Positions 12,796 to 60,794 of a stretch of DNA of 64,000 nucleotides are shown in pieces; positions within the stretch are counted from its first letter, which is position 1, and each line of letters starts with the position of its first letter. The position numbers and the translations under genes were made by a program. This DNA is from Cytophagales bacterium. Its GTDB lineage: Bacteria > Bacteroidota > Bacteroidia > Cytophagales > Spirosomataceae. Where the stretch lies: positions 1 through 64,000 of the forward strand of contig JAAFKE010000012.1 of the NCBI GenBank assembly GCA_013298215.1, in the 5' to 3' direction. Below the pieces are notes generated by a model. That model had not been told where the DNA came from and ran no database searches. It saw only the letters and a list, made by a program, of their open reading frames with translations.

Positions 12796-14610
12796 ATGTT
12801 TATCGAGCAACAAATTAAACAGTTGGCCAACAGCGCGAGCTATCAGCGCGGAGTGGAATATTTTGAAGGCGGCGCGGTGCGAAAAATCACCCGTCAAGGC
12901 AACACCTTCGAGGCCAAGGTATCGGGGTCGTCCCAATATCGGGTTAGTTTAGAAATTGAAAAAAGTGGCGATTTGGATTTTGAGTGTTCTTGTCCCTACG
13001 ACCACGACGGCATCTGCAAGCACAGTGTGGCGTTGGGCTTGGCCGTCTTGTCCGAATTTGGCGACTCTTTTAAGGACAGCCAAAAATCCACCGAAACGCC
13101 TATAAGTGAGCCTATTACTGATTTTGCGCGTATTTTTGAAAAAACAAAATCCAAAGAAAAACTACAATTTTTGCAAGGTTTGCTCCAAAAAGACTCCAAC
13201 CTACAACAACAATTTGTGCGTTTTATGACGCCCGTTGCAAAGGCCAAAAAAACAACAGAAAAACCAGTAGTTCAGTCTAAAACACGGGTCGAAATGTTGA
13301 GTACGGGGGTGTACGAAAAACTGTCAAACTTAACATTTGACGACAAACATTTGGCCAAATATGCCCGAAAATATGGCTACGATTTCGACGAAATGCTATA
13401 TGACGAAGGCGATATGCTGTATGATTTGGGCAATGAAATCATGACCGATTTGTTGAAACCCTACGCCGATAAGCTGCTCAAAGTGCTGCAAGAGGGCAAA
13501 ATCTTGGAAGCCACCGAAATGTGGTTGGGCGTGTATGAGGGTTGTATTTCGGCCACCGAACCCCAAGCCGACGAATACGACATGATGGGCGACTTTGTAG
13601 AAACCAGCACTGAGGCTTGGTTCTCGTTTTTAGCGTCTGCCTATACCATCATCGAAAGGACGCTTTTTGCCCCCGTCGAAATCCAACAAACCATTAATTT
13701 ACTGGTCGAACGCTGTAAATATTTGGACAAAGAAGCCGAGAAGCACGACGACGAAGTAATGGGCGTTTATGAACTCAAAGTTTTTGAGCCATTTTTGATG
13801 GCTTTGTCTGCCGACCCCGAAACAGCCAAGTACCTGTACAAGTCGCTAAAAACGAACGATTTATTGGACATAAACGTGGCTTTTGTTGTCTTGAAAATTG
13901 CCAAAATTACCAACGACGACAAACTCCACGTTGAAACCGCCGAGTATTTTGCCGACAGCGACCCCGACATTGCCGTGCAACTGCTGCAAAAATACATGGG
14001 CCAAAACGACCGCCCAAACTTGCTGCGCGTGGCCAACAAAGTGTGGCCGCGTTTCAAAGACCGTTTCAATGATTTCGTTATCGCAAACATTTCGGCGCAA
14101 GAAGATGCCCCCCTGCACCTGCAAGCCCTCGAAAGCCGCTGCGTGGGCAAAATAAGTCTAACCGACTATGACAGCCTGCGAAAATATTGGAACGAGAAAC
14201 AGCGCAACGGCTTTATTGATGAACACAAAATACAGTGGAAAAACAACGGCAACCACCTGTTTTTGAGCCAGTTGCTGGAACTGGAAAACCGAGTTTCTGA
14301 AATAAAAGATATGTTGGAGCAAATGAACTGGGACTACTCCCGCAACTTGCCCGAAATGTTGCAAATTACGGCCAAATACTATCCCATTGAATGTTCAAAG
14401 ATGACCACGAAACGCGCGGATGCCGCCTTGGCAAACGGCCAACGCGGCCGCGATTTATACCAGCGCATTGCTTCGTGGTTGGAAGCGTTGCACAAAATAC
14501 CTGAGCTGCAACAAAATACGTTGCAATTTGCCGACTACTTAGCCACCGAATATTCGCGGCTGAGTGCCTTGCGCGAAGAACTGCGAAACGTGAAATTGTG
14601 GAGGAAATAA
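12796..14610 (+). CDS. SWIM zinc-finger protein
   Basis: 604 residues. A SWIM zinc finger (CxCxnCxH) is complete: Cys64, Cys66, Cys74, His76 in ECSCPYDHDGICKH. The remaining 500 residues are helical and charged, with no helicase or nuclease motif visible. SWIM domains bind DNA or protein, and in bacteria large SWIM proteins often accompany SWI2/SNF2 helicases; none is present here. Mutually close repeats of helical pairs suggest a TPR-like scaffold in the middle. The gene stands alone, flanked by gene-free DNA on both sides, and a rearranged 3'-part copy lies 2 kb downstream at 16537-16656. Function is unknown. Confidence 0.8.
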   Translation: MFIEQQIKQLANSASYQRGVEYFEGGAVRKITRQGNTFEAKVSGSSQYRVSLEIEKSGDLDFECSCPYDHDGICKHSVALGLAVLSEFGDSFKDSQKSTETPISEPITDFARIFEKTKSKEKLQFLQGLLQKDSNLQQQFVRFMTPVAKAKKTTEKPVVQSKTRVEMLSTGVYEKLSNLTFDDKHLAKYARKYGYDFDEMLYDEGDMLYDLGNEIMTDLLKPYADKLLKVLQEGKILEATEMWLGVYEGCISATEPQADEYDMMGDFVETSTEAWFSFLASAYTIIERTLFAPVEIQQTINLLVERCKYLDKEAEKHDDEVMGVYELKVFEPFLMALSADPETAKYLYKSLKTNDLLDINVAFVVLKIAKITNDDKLHVETAEYFADSDPDIAVQLLQKYMGQNDRPNLLRVANKVWPRFKDRFNDFVIANISAQEDAPLHLQALESRCVGKISLTDYDSLRKYWNEKQRNGFIDEHKIQWKNNGNHLFLSQLLELENRVSEIKDMLEQMNWDYSRNLPEMLQITAKYYPIECSKMTTKRADAALANGQRGRDLYQRIASWLEALHKIPELQQNTLQFADYLATEYSRLSALREELRNVKLWRK

Positions 14611-15079
14611 ACCTAAAATAGGAACAATATGAAGCGATTGATTAGAGTTTGTTTTGGAATTATAACTTATTGATAATGAATAAATTGCAACTTTTCTATT
14701 AATTTCAAACCTCTGACAATCTGATAAATGCAAAATATTTTCTGGTAGCGTATTTCTACTTAATTCTGAGAGCGAAAAAAATAAATATTTACAAAGAAAA
14801 TATGTTAAAAATCTGATTATCAGCAGTTTAAAAATCCAAAACAAACTCTTACATCCTTTCTTTTAACACTTTTGGTGGCTTGCCAGAGTTACAGATTTAT
14901 GCCATTTGCGCCACAGTATGTAACTATCTGATAGTAAGAATTTTCTAATTATTCAATCGTTACCCTTAATTCGCCCTCCTACTTACCTGGACATAAATAA
15001 TCGACAAATTTATCTTTATTAATGTGCTAATTATCAGATAATTACCTCTGAGTCTCGCGTCTACTTACTTGGTATGATA
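14611..15079. other. AT-rich gene-free stretch with short palindromes
   Basis: About 470 bases, strongly AT-rich, with no convincing reading frame. It holds three odd-length palindromes: CTGATTATCAG (14813-14823), ACTATCTGATAGT (14933-14945) and TAATTATCAGATAATTA (15028-15044). Parts of 14936-14990 and 15028-15075 (TTACC... CTACTTAC) weakly resemble the dispersed repeat described at 16867, which suggests decayed copies. Confidence 0.5.
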
Positions 15080-16536: not shown

Positions 16537-16656
16537 TGGACACAAACGTGGCTTTTGTTGTCTTGAGAATTACCAACGACGACAAACTCCACGTTGCAAC
16601 CGCCGAGTTTATGAAATAAAAGATATGTTGGAGCAAATGAACTGGGATCACTCCCG
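16537..16656 (+). pseudogene. rearranged fragment of the SWIM zinc-finger gene
   Basis: 16537-16608 matches 13865-13945 of the SWIM gene (3 mismatches and one 9-base deletion), and 16605-16656 matches 14291-14342 (3 mismatches). The two parts are fused at a shared GAGT, so 349 bases were lost by a microhomology deletion, which shifts the frame into a TAA stop. No 5' part of the gene is present. High identity indicates a fairly recent duplication followed by decay. Confidence 0.85.
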
Positions 16657-16673
16657 AAAAACAAAAAGTACAG

Positions 16674-16812: not shown

Positions 16813-16866
16813 GATCTGAATTAGTTAGGCAACAATGATGAATTTTGAATGAATGACCAGGCAGCT

Positions 16867-16948
16867 CGTGCGGTAGTAGAGCAAGTATTTGATAGCCAAA
16901 TAGTTACAAAATAAAGAATAGCAATTATTTAGTTACATTCACTTACCC
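16867..16948 (+). repeat. dispersed intergenic repeat, copy A
   Basis: One of three related stretches in the window (others 24981-25066 on the plus strand and 60312-60232 on the minus strand). Shared blocks in order are a GC-rich start (CGTGCGGTAGT here), TTGATAG..AAATAGTTAC, AATAAAGAAT, ATTATTTAGTTAC and a CACTTA-like end. Each copy contains TAGTTAC-like heptamers twice, about 31 bases apart. This copy ends three bases before the stop of the esterase gene. No open frame is conserved. Confidence 0.65.
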
Positions 16949-16950
16949 AC

Positions 16951-17829
16951 TTATTGATGGAAACTGCTGCTCACAAATTTTAGTACTTCGGGCAGTGCCG
17001 TGCGCCAGTATGTCCACGTGTGGCCGCCCTCGCGTACCCTAAACTCATGCGGTATTTTCTTGTCTATCATGGCCGCGTGGAGTGCCATGTTGCCTTTTAT
17101 GAGGAAGTCATCGTCGCCGCAATCGATGTAGAAGCGTACTTTTCGGAGTTCGGCGGTGTTGGCTGTTTCCATTATTTTGATGGGTGCGTTTTGGTAATAA
17201 TGCGCCGTGAGGCGGCTTTTGCCGACCAACCCTTTGCCGTAGAGGTCGCCGAATGTGGTGTCCCAACTGGCTTGGTCGGTAGAGTTGCTCACCACCTCGT
17301 CGTCGGTCCAAACGGCCGCACTGAGCGGGGCGGCGGCGGCAAAGAGCTCGGGGTGTTTGCCCACAAAAAGCAGCGCACCCAAGCCACCCATAGAGAGCCC
17401 CGCAACGGCCCGAAAGCGTTTTTGGGCGCGGACGCGGTAGGTTTTTTCGATGAATGGCATGAACTCAGTAACGAAAAAATCTTCGTAGCGCGTCTTGCCG
17501 TCGTGGCTGTTCATGTACCACGCCACGCCGCCGTCGGGCATGGCAATCACCATGGGGGTGGCATCGCCCGCATCGATGGCCTTATCGGTTATCTGCTGCG
17601 TTTCGCCAAACTGCGTCCAGCCCGTTTCGTCGTCGGTGTAGCCGTGGAGGAGGTACAAAATGGGGTAACTTCGGTTCGATTGCTCATAACCAGCGGGCAG
17701 GTAAATACTATACCGAACGTCTTTGCCCAAAATGGCACTTTTTATAGTTAGACTTTCTTTGAGGGTGCTTTGCTGGGCATAACCTACTGACAGCAAGCAT
17801 ACAAGCACGAAGGTAAGTAGTTTTTTCAC
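16951..17829 (-). CDS. secreted esterase (esterase D / feruloyl-esterase-like family)
   Basis: 292 residues with a signal peptide (residues 1-18, ending GYA). It belongs to the putative-esterase alpha/beta hydrolase family: LLHGYTDDETGW (oxyanion region, residues 60-71), nucleophile elbow GLSMGG with Ser146, acid in DCGDDD near residue 236, and base His in EGGHTWTYW near residue 270. All three catalytic positions are present. Members act on carbohydrate esters, S-formylglutathione or mycolates; as an exported protein, deacylation of plant or surface polysaccharides is plausible. It is 32 bases downstream of the glycosyltransferase gene and may share its transcript. Confidence 0.88.
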   Translation of the reverse strand: MKKLLTFVLVCLLSVGYAQQSTLKESLTIKSAILGKDVRYSIYLPAGYEQSNRSYPILYLLHGYTDDETGWTQFGETQQITDKAIDAGDATPMVIAMPDGGVAWYMNSHDGKTRYEDFFVTEFMPFIEKTYRVRAQKRFRAVAGLSMGGLGALLFVGKHPELFAAAAPLSAAVWTDDEVVSNSTDQASWDTTFGDLYGKGLVGKSRLTAHYYQNAPIKIMETANTAELRKVRFYIDCGDDDFLIKGNMALHAAMIDKKIPHEFRVREGGHTWTYWRTALPEVLKFVSSSFHQ

Positions 17830-23615: not shown

Positions 23616-24743
23616 TTAATTAAAAGCAGCATTGTCACTATCTTGCTGGAAACTTTTGGTGATCCAGCCACCGCCCACCACGTCGTTTCCTTCGTAGAAT
23701 ACGGCCGCTTGACCAGGTGCAATGGCGCTCACGCCTTCGTGGAAAAGCACCCGCATTTTATCCCCAAATTGCTCAATGGTGGCAGCCGTGCCAGCGTCTT
23801 TGTAGCGCACCTTGGTTGTGGTTTCGAGGGGCATCTCGCCGAGGTTTTCGTATTTTTGCATATTGAGTTTGCCCACCCACATGGCGTCGCGGTACAGTTG
23901 GGGCAGGTCGCCAAGCACCACTTCGTTGGTTTCTTTGCGTATTTCGGTCACAAAAATGGGTCTGCCCAGGGCAATTCCCAACCCCTTGCGCTGGCCAATG
24001 GTATAAAATGGGTAGCCTTCGTGCTGGCCCACCACGGTGCCGTCGGCCATCACAAAATTACCGCCCGCCACCTGCGCCTCCAACGTCGGAATGCGGTGTT
24101 TGAGAAAGCCTCGGTAGTCGTTGTCGGGCACAAAACAAATCTCGTAGCTCTCCGCCTTATTGACCAGCTCCATAAATCCCCGCTGCCGAGCCATGTCTCT
24201 AATTTCCGTTTTGTGGAGATGGCCAAGCGGGAGTTTGGTGCGCGCCAAGCTGGCCTGCGAAACCCCCCAAAGCACGTAAGACTGGTCTTTGGTGGAGTCG
24301 ATGCCCTTAGAAATAACGTGCCGGTTGTTGGCCTGTCGAATGTTGGCGTAGTGGCCAGTGGCTATAAACTCGCAGTCGAGGCTGTCGGCGCGGCGTAGTA
24401 GGGCATCCCATTTTATGTGGGTGTTGCAAAGCACGCAGGGGTTGGGCGTGCGGCCTTCGAGGTACTCGCCCGTAAAATGGTCGATAACCGAGTCGCCAAA
24501 CTCGGCCCTAATGTCTAAAATATAGTGCGGAAAACCCAACTGCACCGCCACATTGCGGGCATCGTTTATGGAGTCTAAGGAGCAGCAACCCGTTTCTTTT
24601 TTGGATGCACCGCTGCTGGCATAGTCCCAGGTTTTCATTGTCATCCCGATTACCTCGTAGCCCTCGTCGTGCAGCATTACCGCCGCCAAAGAACTATCTA
24701 TGCCACCGCTCATGGCCACTAAAATACGTCCGTTTTTGCTCAT
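23616..24743 (-). CDS. mnmA: tRNA 2-thiouridine(34) synthase
   Basis: 375 residues. MnmA adenylates and thiolates U34 of tRNA Lys/Glu/Gln. The PP-loop SGGIDSS (residues 13-19), the first catalytic Cys in NPCVLCNTHIKWD (near residue 102) and the second in SYEICFVPDNDYR (near residue 200) are all present, followed by the C-terminal beta-barrel with GQRKGLGIALG. The length is normal. It is probably its own unit, with the efflux genes downstream on the same strand. Confidence 0.96.
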   Translation of the reverse strand: MSKNGRILVAMSGGIDSSLAAVMLHDEGYEVIGMTMKTWDYASSGASKKETGCCSLDSINDARNVAVQLGFPHYILDIRAEFGDSVIDHFTGEYLEGRTPNPCVLCNTHIKWDALLRRADSLDCEFIATGHYANIRQANNRHVISKGIDSTKDQSYVLWGVSQASLARTKLPLGHLHKTEIRDMARQRGFMELVNKAESYEICFVPDNDYRGFLKHRIPTLEAQVAGGNFVMADGTVVGQHEGYPFYTIGQRKGLGIALGRPIFVTEIRKETNEVVLGDLPQLYRDAMWVGKLNMQKYENLGEMPLETTTKVRYKDAGTAATIEQFGDKMRVLFHEGVSAIAPGQAAVFYEGNDVVGGGWITKSFQQDSDNAAFN

Positions 24744-24980
24744 TGCTATCTAACAAGGTTCAAAGCCTTGCGACTGTGTTTGGTTGCGTGCAAAAGCACA
24801 ATTGAAACAATAAATCAGGCGAAAACTCAGCATCACGTGGCTGTATTCGGCCTTCGTTTTACCAAACCTGACTCGGATCAAAACAACCCTTGCCGCAAAC
24901 AAGTTCCTAACCAAAAACAATTCAAAACCAGCCCGAAAGTGCATTTTGGCGGTTGGTACTGGCCATGGTGCCAGACATGA

Positions 24981-25066
24981 CCGCGCGGTTGTTTAATAAA
25001 TACCTGATAGTTAAATAGTTACGAAATAAACAATGTCGATTACTTGGTTGCAGCTACTTAAATCTA
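24981..25066 (+). repeat. dispersed intergenic repeat, copy B
   Basis: Related to 16867-16948 and to the complement of 60232-60312. Blocks seen here are CCGCGCGGTTGTTTAATAAA, CTGATAGTTAAATAGTTAC, AAATAAACAATG, GATTACTTGGTTGC and CTACTTAAATC. Over the first 30 bases, 22 or so match copy C by eye. It occupies the end of the gene-free stretch 24744-25108, 43 bases before the NIPSNAP gene; the rest of that stretch shows nothing I can name. Confidence 0.65.
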
Positions 25067-25108: not shown

Positions 25109-25855
25109 ATGAAATCCATCAAAAAATACACCCTAAGCCTTGTTTTGCTCCTTGCCTGCAACCTGTGCCAAGCCTCTACCGACGGCAGGGTATACGAAAT
25201 GCGCACGTACTACGCCGAACCTGGCAAGTTGGACGCACTCGTGGCGCGGTTTAGAGACCACACAGCCGCTTTCTTTAAGCAGTTTGGAATGACAAACGTT
25301 GGCTACTGGATACCCGCCAACAATCCCGACAATAAACTGATTTATATTTTGTCGTATCCCAGCCAAAAAGCCCGCGAGGCAGCTTGGAAAACTTTCGCAG
25401 ACAACCCCGAGCGAATTAGGGTGTTTGAGGCAAGCGAGAAAAATGGCAAATTGGTGGCTAAAATTGAGCAAATATTCATGCAAACCACCGATTTTTCGTA
25501 CCGCGTCAAGAAAAAAAACGTGGGTAAGCAGCCGCGCGTTTTTGAGATGAGAACCTACAAAACGCTACCCAACAAACTGCCCGACTTGTTGAGCCGTTTC
25601 AGAAACCATACCACCAGACTTTTAGAAAAACACGGGATGACCAACATTGCTTATTGGGTACCCACCGACCGCAACGACGAGCTAATTTATATCTTATCCC
25701 ACAAAGACGAGGCAGCCGCTAAGGCTTCTTTCGCCGCTTTTGGCAAAGACCCCGACTGGATTGCGGCCCGCAACGCTTCGGAGACAAACGGCAAAATTGT
25801 CGAAAAAATAGAATCCGTCTTTATGAACGCCACCGATTTTTCGCTTATCCGGTGA
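25109..25855 (+). CDS. exported protein with two NIPSNAP domains
   Basis: 248 residues with a signal peptide (about 1-23, ending CQA). Two tandem NIPSNAP (ferredoxin-like A/B barrel) domains are obvious from near-repeat sequence: VYEMRTYYAEPGKLDALVAR then VFEMRTYKTLPNKLPDLLSR, each followed by HGMTN/FGMTN(I/V)(A/G)YW and (L/E)IYILS. The family is widespread but its biochemistry is unclear; some members bind small hydrophobic ligands. The BadF-type kinase gene follows at 31 bases. Confidence 0.9.
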   Translation: MKSIKKYTLSLVLLLACNLCQASTDGRVYEMRTYYAEPGKLDALVARFRDHTAAFFKQFGMTNVGYWIPANNPDNKLIYILSYPSQKAREAAWKTFADNPERIRVFEASEKNGKLVAKIEQIFMQTTDFSYRVKKKNVGKQPRVFEMRTYKTLPNKLPDLLSRFRNHTTRLLEKHGMTNIAYWVPTDRNDELIYILSHKDEAAAKASFAAFGKDPDWIAARNASETNGKIVEKIESVFMNATDFSLIR

Positions 25856-58922: not shown

Positions 58923-60077
58923 TCACACGCCTTCCAAATAATTTTTGGGCGATGTTCCCGTAAATTTTTTGACGGCGCGGTTGAAAGTAGCTTTTGAGTT
59001 AAAACCCGAGTCGAGCGCGATGCCCAGCAGGCTTAGGTGCTGGTTTTCAGGGTCTTTGCGCCGCCGTTTGAACTCCTCCACCCGAAACTCATTCACAAAA
59101 TCGTTAAAGTTTTTGCCGTAGCCGCCGTTTATGACTCCCGACAACACCGATACGTTGGTTTTGAGGCGGTTGGCCAAATCCGACAGCGTGAGTTCGGGTT
59201 CGAGATACACTTTGTCGTCGCGCATGAGTTTGTCAATTTTGGTTTTCCAAACGGCATAATTCACCTCCGTCGGGAGAGCCGCCACGCCGTCTTTTGCGGT
59301 ATCGTCGGGCAAATGTTGCGCGGGCAAATGCGTTGCTTCGAGCGCGGCTTGGTCGAAAACGAGCTTTTTGGGTTGCGGCTGCGCGTAGCCTTTTATACCC
59401 ACGTAGGTAATAATGGCCACCGTGAACAAATTCCACCACCAATCTTGCTCAAAAGGCAGGTCGTCCAAGGCTTTATCGGCAATACTCCAGCCCAATTTAA
59501 ATACTTCGCCCGCGATGATGAGATAAATGAAATTGCGAAGCCAAATGAAGCTAACCAGTTCAACGTCAGAAAATTGCGATTCAGTCCAACTGCGATAGGC
59601 GCGATAAATACGGAGCGATTGGTAAAAATAATAAATGTAAGAAGCCCAAATGGCCGCCGTTTCGAGCCAGCTCAACCAATGGGCCAAAGTGGAAACGCGA
59701 AACTGGTGCAGCGCGGTTTTGCCCTGCACAAAAACGGCGAAGCTGATTGAAAAGTAAAGAAAATAAGGTACGTAATGCAGCAAATGAGCGGCCTTTAAGC
59801 GAAAATCGCGGTTGATTTGGGCGTTGAGGTACAAAAAAATGGTGGGCGCAAAAGCCAGCGTAAAATAACGCGGAAAGCCGTCGAATTTTTCCCAGAGAAT
59901 GTTGATGCCCGCAAAACCGAAGGTGTAATCTTGGATTTCCATGGCCAAAAAAAACAAAATCCAGCCCAGTAATTTGTCCGAAAGCCGTTCTTCGCGCCAG
60001 CCTCGGTACCAGAGTAAAACTGCAAAAAGTAGGGCCAAAAAATAGCCAAATTGCAACGGGGTGGTGTAATAAGTCAT
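58923..60077 (-). CDS. membrane-anchored AraC-type regulator
   Basis: 384 residues. The N-terminal 240 residues hold about seven hydrophobic helices (FGYFLALLFAVLLWYRGW, ... NLFTVAIITYVGIKGY). The C-terminal 100 residues are an AraC-type DNA-binding domain (YLEPELTLSDLANRLKTNVSVLSGVINGGYGKNFNDFVNEFRVEEFKRR, then LGIALDSGFNSKATFNRAVKKFTGTSPKNYL). This layout, a seven-helix sensor fused to an AraC output, is common in Bacteroidota; ligands are mostly unknown. No target gene is evident nearby. The upstream stretch 60078-60488 holds repeat copy C and the DUF952 promoter. Confidence 0.9.
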   Translation of the reverse strand: MTYYTTPLQFGYFLALLFAVLLWYRGWREERLSDKLLGWILFFLAMEIQDYTFGFAGINILWEKFDGFPRYFTLAFAPTIFLYLNAQINRDFRLKAAHLLHYVPYFLYFSISFAVFVQGKTALHQFRVSTLAHWLSWLETAAIWASYIYYFYQSLRIYRAYRSWTESQFSDVELVSFIWLRNFIYLIIAGEVFKLGWSIADKALDDLPFEQDWWWNLFTVAIITYVGIKGYAQPQPKKLVFDQAALEATHLPAQHLPDDTAKDGVAALPTEVNYAVWKTKIDKLMRDDKVYLEPELTLSDLANRLKTNVSVLSGVINGGYGKNFNDFVNEFRVEEFKRRRKDPENQHLSLLGIALDSGFNSKATFNRAVKKFTGTSPKNYLEGV

Positions 60078-60231: not shown

Positions 60232-60312
60232 GAGATAAGTAGAGGTAACGAAATAATTGATATTTTTTTACAACTATTTAACTATCAAATGCTTATTCAA
60301 TAACTGGGCGGC
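60232..60312 (-). repeat. dispersed intergenic repeat, copy C
   Basis: Read on the minus strand from 60312: CCGCCCAGTTATTGAATAAG, then TTTGATAGTTAAATAGTTG, ATATCAATTATTTCGTTACC and CTACTTATCTC. This is the same block order as copies A (16867-16948) and B (24981-25066). It lies in the gene-free stretch 60078-60488, divergent promoter space between the AraC-type and DUF952 genes. Confidence 0.65.
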
Positions 60313-60452
60313 TCCGTCAGAATTTAACATTATTACTTAACCGTCCTATTGCAAAACAAAGATGCTGTTTTTTTTATTCCCAGTACAGCAATTTTTATCT
60401 CAATTTTACCACCTCCCGCAGTATGAACTGCTGTGCGAGCCCACCGTAACCC

Positions 60453-60488: not shown

Positions 60489-60794
60489 ATGAGCCCAATG
60501 ACTGTCTACCACATTGTTGCTGCCGCCGACTGGGATAAATTTGCGGGCGACCACACCTACCAAGCCGCTGGATACTCCGCCGAGGGGTTTATTCATCTTA
60601 GCACTGCCGACCAGGTGGCGGGGGTATTAGAACGCTACTACACTGGCGCTACCGACCTGCGACTGCTGAATATAAACACCGATTTACTAACGGCCCAACT
60701 CAAATGGGAAGCCGCCTCCAACGGGGAACTGTTCCCGCATTTGTACGGGCCGCTCAATAAAAATGCCATCGAAAAAATAGAGATTATTCCATGA
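60489..60794 (+). CDS. DUF952 domain protein
   Basis: 101 residues. The family pattern is clear: VYHIVAAADWDKF at the N-terminus, GFIHLSTADQVAGVL near residue 35, the LNINTDLLTAQLKWE strand and FPHLYGPLN near residue 83. DUF952 proteins are cytoplasmic and of unknown function, with a conserved His that suggests an enzyme. The stop overlaps the start of the next DinB gene by four bases, so they are one unit. Confidence 0.93.
   Translation: MSPMTVYHIVAAADWDKFAGDHTYQAAGYSAEGFIHLSTADQVAGVLERYYTGATDLRLLNINTDLLTAQLKWEAASNGELFPHLYGPLNKNAIEKIEIIP

Follow-up and report, generated by a model that had tools for sequence, protein, structure and literature searches.

A lineage-specific family of intergenic repeats in a Cytophagales genome, most probably miniature transposable elements in decay

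The 64,000-nucleotide stretch of DNA analysed here (the window) carries in three gaps between genes a repeat that an earlier, sequence-only reading had described as about 85 bp long and possibly a REP- or MITE-like element or a regulatory RNA or site, which raises the question of what kind of sequence it is and how it was dispersed. As a non-circular test, an nhmmer profile was built from 27 copies of the family (family A), all of them outside the window, with 60 dinucleotide shuffles of the whole window (3.84 Mb) as the control. The three copies scored 58.0 to 65.3 bits with this profile, compared to a shuffle maximum of 10.8 bits, so the repeat stands in the very comparison that had been proposed as its refutation; the alignment and the outside-window profile also confirmed the number of copies, their orientations and their shared ordered blocks. 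The loci had been placed correctly, with extents that were too short at the ends, since the 5' part TAAGTAATAATGTTGAATTTTGA and the GC-rich module also belong to the element. The features in the window are as follows:

16826..16945, plus strand: family A copy 1, full length, 120 bp (E 3e-24; 65.3 bits)
~24951..25060, plus strand: family A copy 2 (E 5.5e-21, model positions 11-120; 58.0 bits)
60236..60339, minus strand: family A copy 3, 104 bp (E 4.5e-20; 59.0 bits)
60332..60339, minus strand: left terminus of copy 3, TAAGTAAT (alignment)
60236..60243, minus strand: right terminus of copy 3, TCTACTTA, inverted with respect to the left terminus (alignment)
16855..16873, plus strand: degenerate form of the optional GC-rich module, within copy 1 (alignment and genome-wide module search)
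14987..15044, minus strand: candidate remnant of a family A copy, strongly decayed and of low confidence (4.9 bits, in the shuffle range; by blastn of the weak 14.9-15.1 kb region, 51 bp at 78% to a further copy, L100)

The stop of a convergent minus-strand frame, on the side of the esterase gene (16951-17829, minus strand), falls exactly at the 3' boundary of copy 1. Copy 2, lying between a tRNA methyltransferase (tRNA_Me_trans) gene (23616-24743, minus strand) and a NIPSNAP gene (25109-25855, plus strand), has lost the first ~25 bp of its 5' terminus to erosion and retains an intact 3' terminus, CTACTTA. Both termini are intact in copy 3 (TAAGTAATAATG ... TCTACTTA), which is found between an AraC-type regulator gene (58923-60077, minus strand) and a DUF952 gene (60489-60794, plus strand). 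Two decayed copies suspected at 14936-14990 and 15028-15075 could not be upheld as described; the sole trace is a weak one from the opposite strand, where the matches at 14987-15044 and 14915-14962 (5.3 bits) are both inside the shuffle range. In the same neighbourhood, segments of a 604-aa ORF (12796-14610), at 13865-13945 and 14289-14345, recur with 93-98% identity at 16537-16659, and this rearranged ORF remnant sits just upstream of copy 1; comparison of the duplicated segments (13865-14345 and 16537-16659) gave no empty site for copy 1.

Genome-wide, family A comprises ~40 recognisable non-coding copies, 86-128 bp in length when near-complete. Using copy 1 as the query, blastn found ~12 further places in the 3.55-Mb genome, and a model of the sequence alone (R1) returned 39 matches at E<1e-5, including two that are members of a sister family, B (C13:53214 and C28:11341). 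The many intergenic copies that had been named as support are present, with ~37 copies of A at E<1e-5 on many contigs in addition to many end fragments. The full element, ~90-128 bp, starts with TAAGTAATAATGTTGAAT and finishes with TTTACTTA, its order being TAAGTAATAATGTTGAATTTTGA, an optional GC-rich module GACGGGGCCGCCCGCGCGG, and then ATTATTGAATAAGTATTTGATAGTTAAATAGTTACAAAATAAAGAATGTCGATTATTTAGTTACATTTACTTA; the terminal inverted repeat is ~7-8 bp and imperfect (TAAGTAAT / ATTTACTTA). The ends are sharp, the flanking sequences are unrelated between copies, and TA is nearly invariant at both borders. The left end alone has 65 matches at <=3 mismatches, compared to 2+3 for a reversed control pattern, and about a dozen of these are fragments without the rest of the element. 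A retro-element with a constant left end and many right truncations was considered and rejected; the truncations come from both sides, and decay by deletion is thus enough to explain the fragments. Mean pairwise identity within the family is ~70%, indicating that it is probably old. No reading frame is kept across the copies, in agreement with the initial view that none of them encodes protein: the short chance frame of one subtype is broken in the other copies, and a coding reading of the GC-rich 5' part (a DGAARAANELLNKYLI-like frame) was discarded since 8-nt length differences between subtypes break the frame.

The family is confined almost entirely to the spaces between genes. Of the 78 A and B records examined, among which a few loci appear under both families, 76 have their midpoint outside any ORF of 100 aa or more, and such ORFs cover ~87% of the window. 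Copies of A occur upstream of genes, downstream of genes and between convergent genes alike, with no consistent orientation to them. In an observed 15 of 44 copies, the stop of an adjacent frame of 80 codons or more falls in the terminal bases of the element. Both ends of A read TAA inward, so that a stop would be kept after insertion at a TAA or TAG stop codon.

The sister family, B (~27 copies), has an interior related to that of A and other ends, GGAATGAG.../...GTTCC. Its consensus reads GGAATGAGTTTTGAAT...CAACTACTTATTTATTTYAYGTTCC with TWA on either side, and its terminal inverted repeat is GGAAYG / CRTTCC. The kinship is seen in both directions: the B consensus matches an A copy (C31:29225) by blastn over 46 bp at 89% (E 1e-10), and the A model matches the B copy at C13:53214 at E 2.7e-7. 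When family B was aligned (28 records, 23 with both ends), identical 3-bp flanks were found in 17 of the 23 copies, whereas 2000 shuffles of the pairing averaged 7.5 and never exceeded 15; the pairs are TAA/TAA, TTA/TTA and, once, ATA/ATA. These 3-bp TWA flanks are a target-site duplication. The right end of one A copy, at C11:15831-16016, is split by a B copy; once B and a single TAA are taken out, the A element reads through without interruption to its end, ...GCATTTACTTA. B therefore still moved at a time when A was already in position. Another B copy (L281) is itself interrupted by a small MITE with TA borders, whose ends resemble those of an IS630-type insertion sequence in L208. As a separate observation, a decayed IS630-type element with AGTTTTG ends and TA borders (L211, ~950-1725; G000:C12:62421 onwards) apparently inserted in an A copy, having TAAGTAATGATGTTG just to its left and CTGATAATGAGCTA, similar to the interior of A, just to its right.

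For A, a scan for direct duplications at other boundaries gave nothing consistent, and no flank duplication varying from copy to copy was found, so the TA could be part of the element and not a duplication; it is the only feature of the borders, and a shuffle test within one genome cannot separate it from the element.

Overall, these results make it very probable that the repeat is a MITE-like family, made up of miniature non-autonomous DNA transposons, specific to this lineage and now mostly decayed. Family A is shorter than ~300 bp, lacks coding capacity, is present in multiple dispersed and mostly intergenic copies and carries terminal inverted repeats, as MITEs do, and the MITE-like option raised from the sequence gains further from the target-site duplications of the sister family and from its nested insertion with a readable empty site. 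The defined ends, dispersal and intergenic position of A, together with the duplications of B and the nested insertions, speak for MITE-like elements mobilised in trans by transposases; the mechanism and enzyme by which A itself transposed we infer. With TAAGTAA.../...TTACTTA as the short inverted ends that it recognised, a DDE-type transposase encoded elsewhere would have placed the A copies into AT-rich intergenic sites containing TA; the TA on either flank is a possible 2-bp target duplication. Insertions at stop codons would have been tolerated because ends that begin with TAA on both strands leave the stop in place. Family B moved with its 3-bp TWA duplications and remained mobile after the spread of A. 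It is conceivable, if rather doubtful, that A and B are one miniature element with swapped termini, its common interior with the GC module having been mobilised by a TA-targeting transposase first (A) and a TWA-duplicating one later (B), and thus with a switch of the mobilising enzyme.

No autonomous parent of A or B and no linked transposase family, which the sequence-only reading had listed as a further support, were found in the 65-contig draft assembly, in a search that covered isolated ends and the IS630-type (DDE_3), DDE_Tnp_1 and Y1_Tnp loci, all of which have other ends. The extra isolated ends examined as possible traces of a parental IS were truncated copies or at chance level. Since repeat ISs often fall in assembly gaps, the parents may lie in such gaps among the 65 contigs, or may have been lost, or may belong to other transposase families than those scanned. 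The best reading is therefore a decaying, lineage-specific MITE-like pair whose moving transposases were not found in the draft genome.

Of the other explanations, we consider it quite unlikely that the family is a structured RNA with a regulatory role, or a 3'-UTR element, dispersed through the genome, in which a transcribed hairpin of the 3' half terminates or stabilises mRNAs. Stop codons adjoin many copies, the 3' half is a weak palindrome able to fold into a hairpin of ~22 pairs, many of them G-U, and in 36 copies 83% of the hairpin cells pair, versus 25-48% with the partner strand slid. However, the compensatory changes expected in support of an RNA did not exceed those in shuffles (8 pairs with double changes in 36 copies versus 8.1), and a weaker hint of covariation in 24 copies vanished with 36. 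RNAalifold predicted no consensus pairs, folding z-scores of single copies ranged from +0.2 to -2.1 with unremarkable energies, an Rfam search of the A and B loci matched only an unrelated tRNA, and the copies are without a consistent orientation relative to genes. Even less probable is a REP/BIME-like origin, in which the GC-rich module would be the REP unit and a RAYT (Y1) transposase would have dispersed the palindromes. The module does recur 16 times in the genome at <=1 mismatch, several times within family B and with variants outside A and B, and the genome encodes one RAYT-like Y1 transposase (L212, G000:C8:23242); yet many A and B copies whose ends are intact lack the module, each copy is AT-rich over most of its length, the gene is flanked by palindromes of the type GGGCGACCACAAGGGTCGCCC, unlike A and B, and the stem-loop with a GTAG or CGTC tag (PMC3733652) is not formed at the expected place. 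It can scarcely be maintained that the two TAGTTAC-like heptamers, which are present as first noticed but ~29 bp apart (not ~31) and in many copies have a spacing of some three helical turns, are operator-like protein-binding sites under selection, since their blocks are no better conserved than the rest (~0.79-0.80 versus 0.89-0.90 at the 5' end), the copies lie in every arrangement to genes, and none was found in the related genera searched.

Two side observations concern the module and the RAYT-like gene. A free-standing GC-rich repeat, CGGGGCCGCCCGTGCGG, which is a variant of the A/B module, occurs at unrelated places (L194, L195, L197, L199, L201 and L205), once paired 66 bp apart and once within a duplicated segment. 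The RAYT-like gene is preceded by several palindromes of the GGGCGACC...GGTCGCCC type and apparently lies between genes for restriction-modification specificity and restriction subunits.

The host belongs to the Runella/Emticicia group; the best relatives of one protein of the window, from Runella and Emticicia, are ~65-70% identical to it. Searching 58 relatives and 222 genomes of the family with the A model gave nothing convincing (best E outside the host ~4.5e-5, versus 1.9e-26 at home), which is what a lineage-specific expansion would give. In Runella, Emticicia and Lacihabitans, the loci related to one of the flanking genes held no convincing copy, and a plasmid collection searched with A and B gave no match. 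As far as can be tested among these genomes, in which no other genome of the host genus was listed, family A is genus- or species-specific.

Typical MITEs have a terminal inverted repeat longer than ~7-8 bp, and in IS5-family elements of the IS1031 group the target duplication is a 3-bp TNA. Family B resembles the latter in its TWA duplication, unlike them in that the DDE_3, DDE_Tnp_1 and Y1_Tnp loci scanned yielded no transposase of the IS5 type bounded by GGAATGAG.../...GTTCC. The TA at both borders of nearly every A copy is as in MITEs derived from IS630/Tc1-mariner elements, and the host has IS630-type transposases besides the small MITE inserted with TA in the B copy of L281; however, the ends of A do not match the IS630 copies present. 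Prokaryotic MITEs are the subject of a review (PMC10969869). Like prokaryotic MITEs such as Nezha, RUP, NEMIS and MITECca01, A is short, non-coding, dispersed and intergenic with terminal inverted repeats, and it shares with them a lineage-specific burst and the lack of a transposase inside. In contrast to MITECca01 of Cardinium, a Bacteroidota endosymbiont, for which the parental IS982-family element is known (PMC9769881), A has a terminal repeat of ~7-8 bp and a parent that was not found. REPs, defined as GC-rich palindromes of 20-40 bp with a GTAG or CGTC tag and linked to RAYT, and BIMEs (PMC3733652) are likewise small, intergenic, partly palindromic and often near stop codons, whereas A is longer, mostly AT-rich and not made of tagged stem-loops, and the host RAYT has other palindromes.

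No description of family A was found in the open-access literature searched, and in a full-text search the term 'miniature inverted-repeat transposable element' did not occur together with 'Cytophagales' in any paper. Family A is real, new and lineage-specific, of an element kind that is well known, and together with B it brings to the Cytophagales a pair of MITE-like families specific to one lineage. With an IS630-type MITE inserted in B, and B in A, the insertions form layers from which a relative chronology within a single genome can be read, and the ends beginning with TAA show how a small element can insert at stop codons without removing the stop. The most unusual aspect of the pair is the relation of A to B, a case in which a change of transposase by a non-autonomous element can be put to the test. 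The window also holds another MITE-like element (14645-14848, ~204 bp) with inverted ends of ~34 bp (GAGTTTGTTTTGGA...TCCAAAACAAACTC) and TTA on both sides (14642-14644 and 14849-14851), and its right part has a 97-bp identical copy at the start of contig C33, adjoining an IS630-type transposase fragment (L210).
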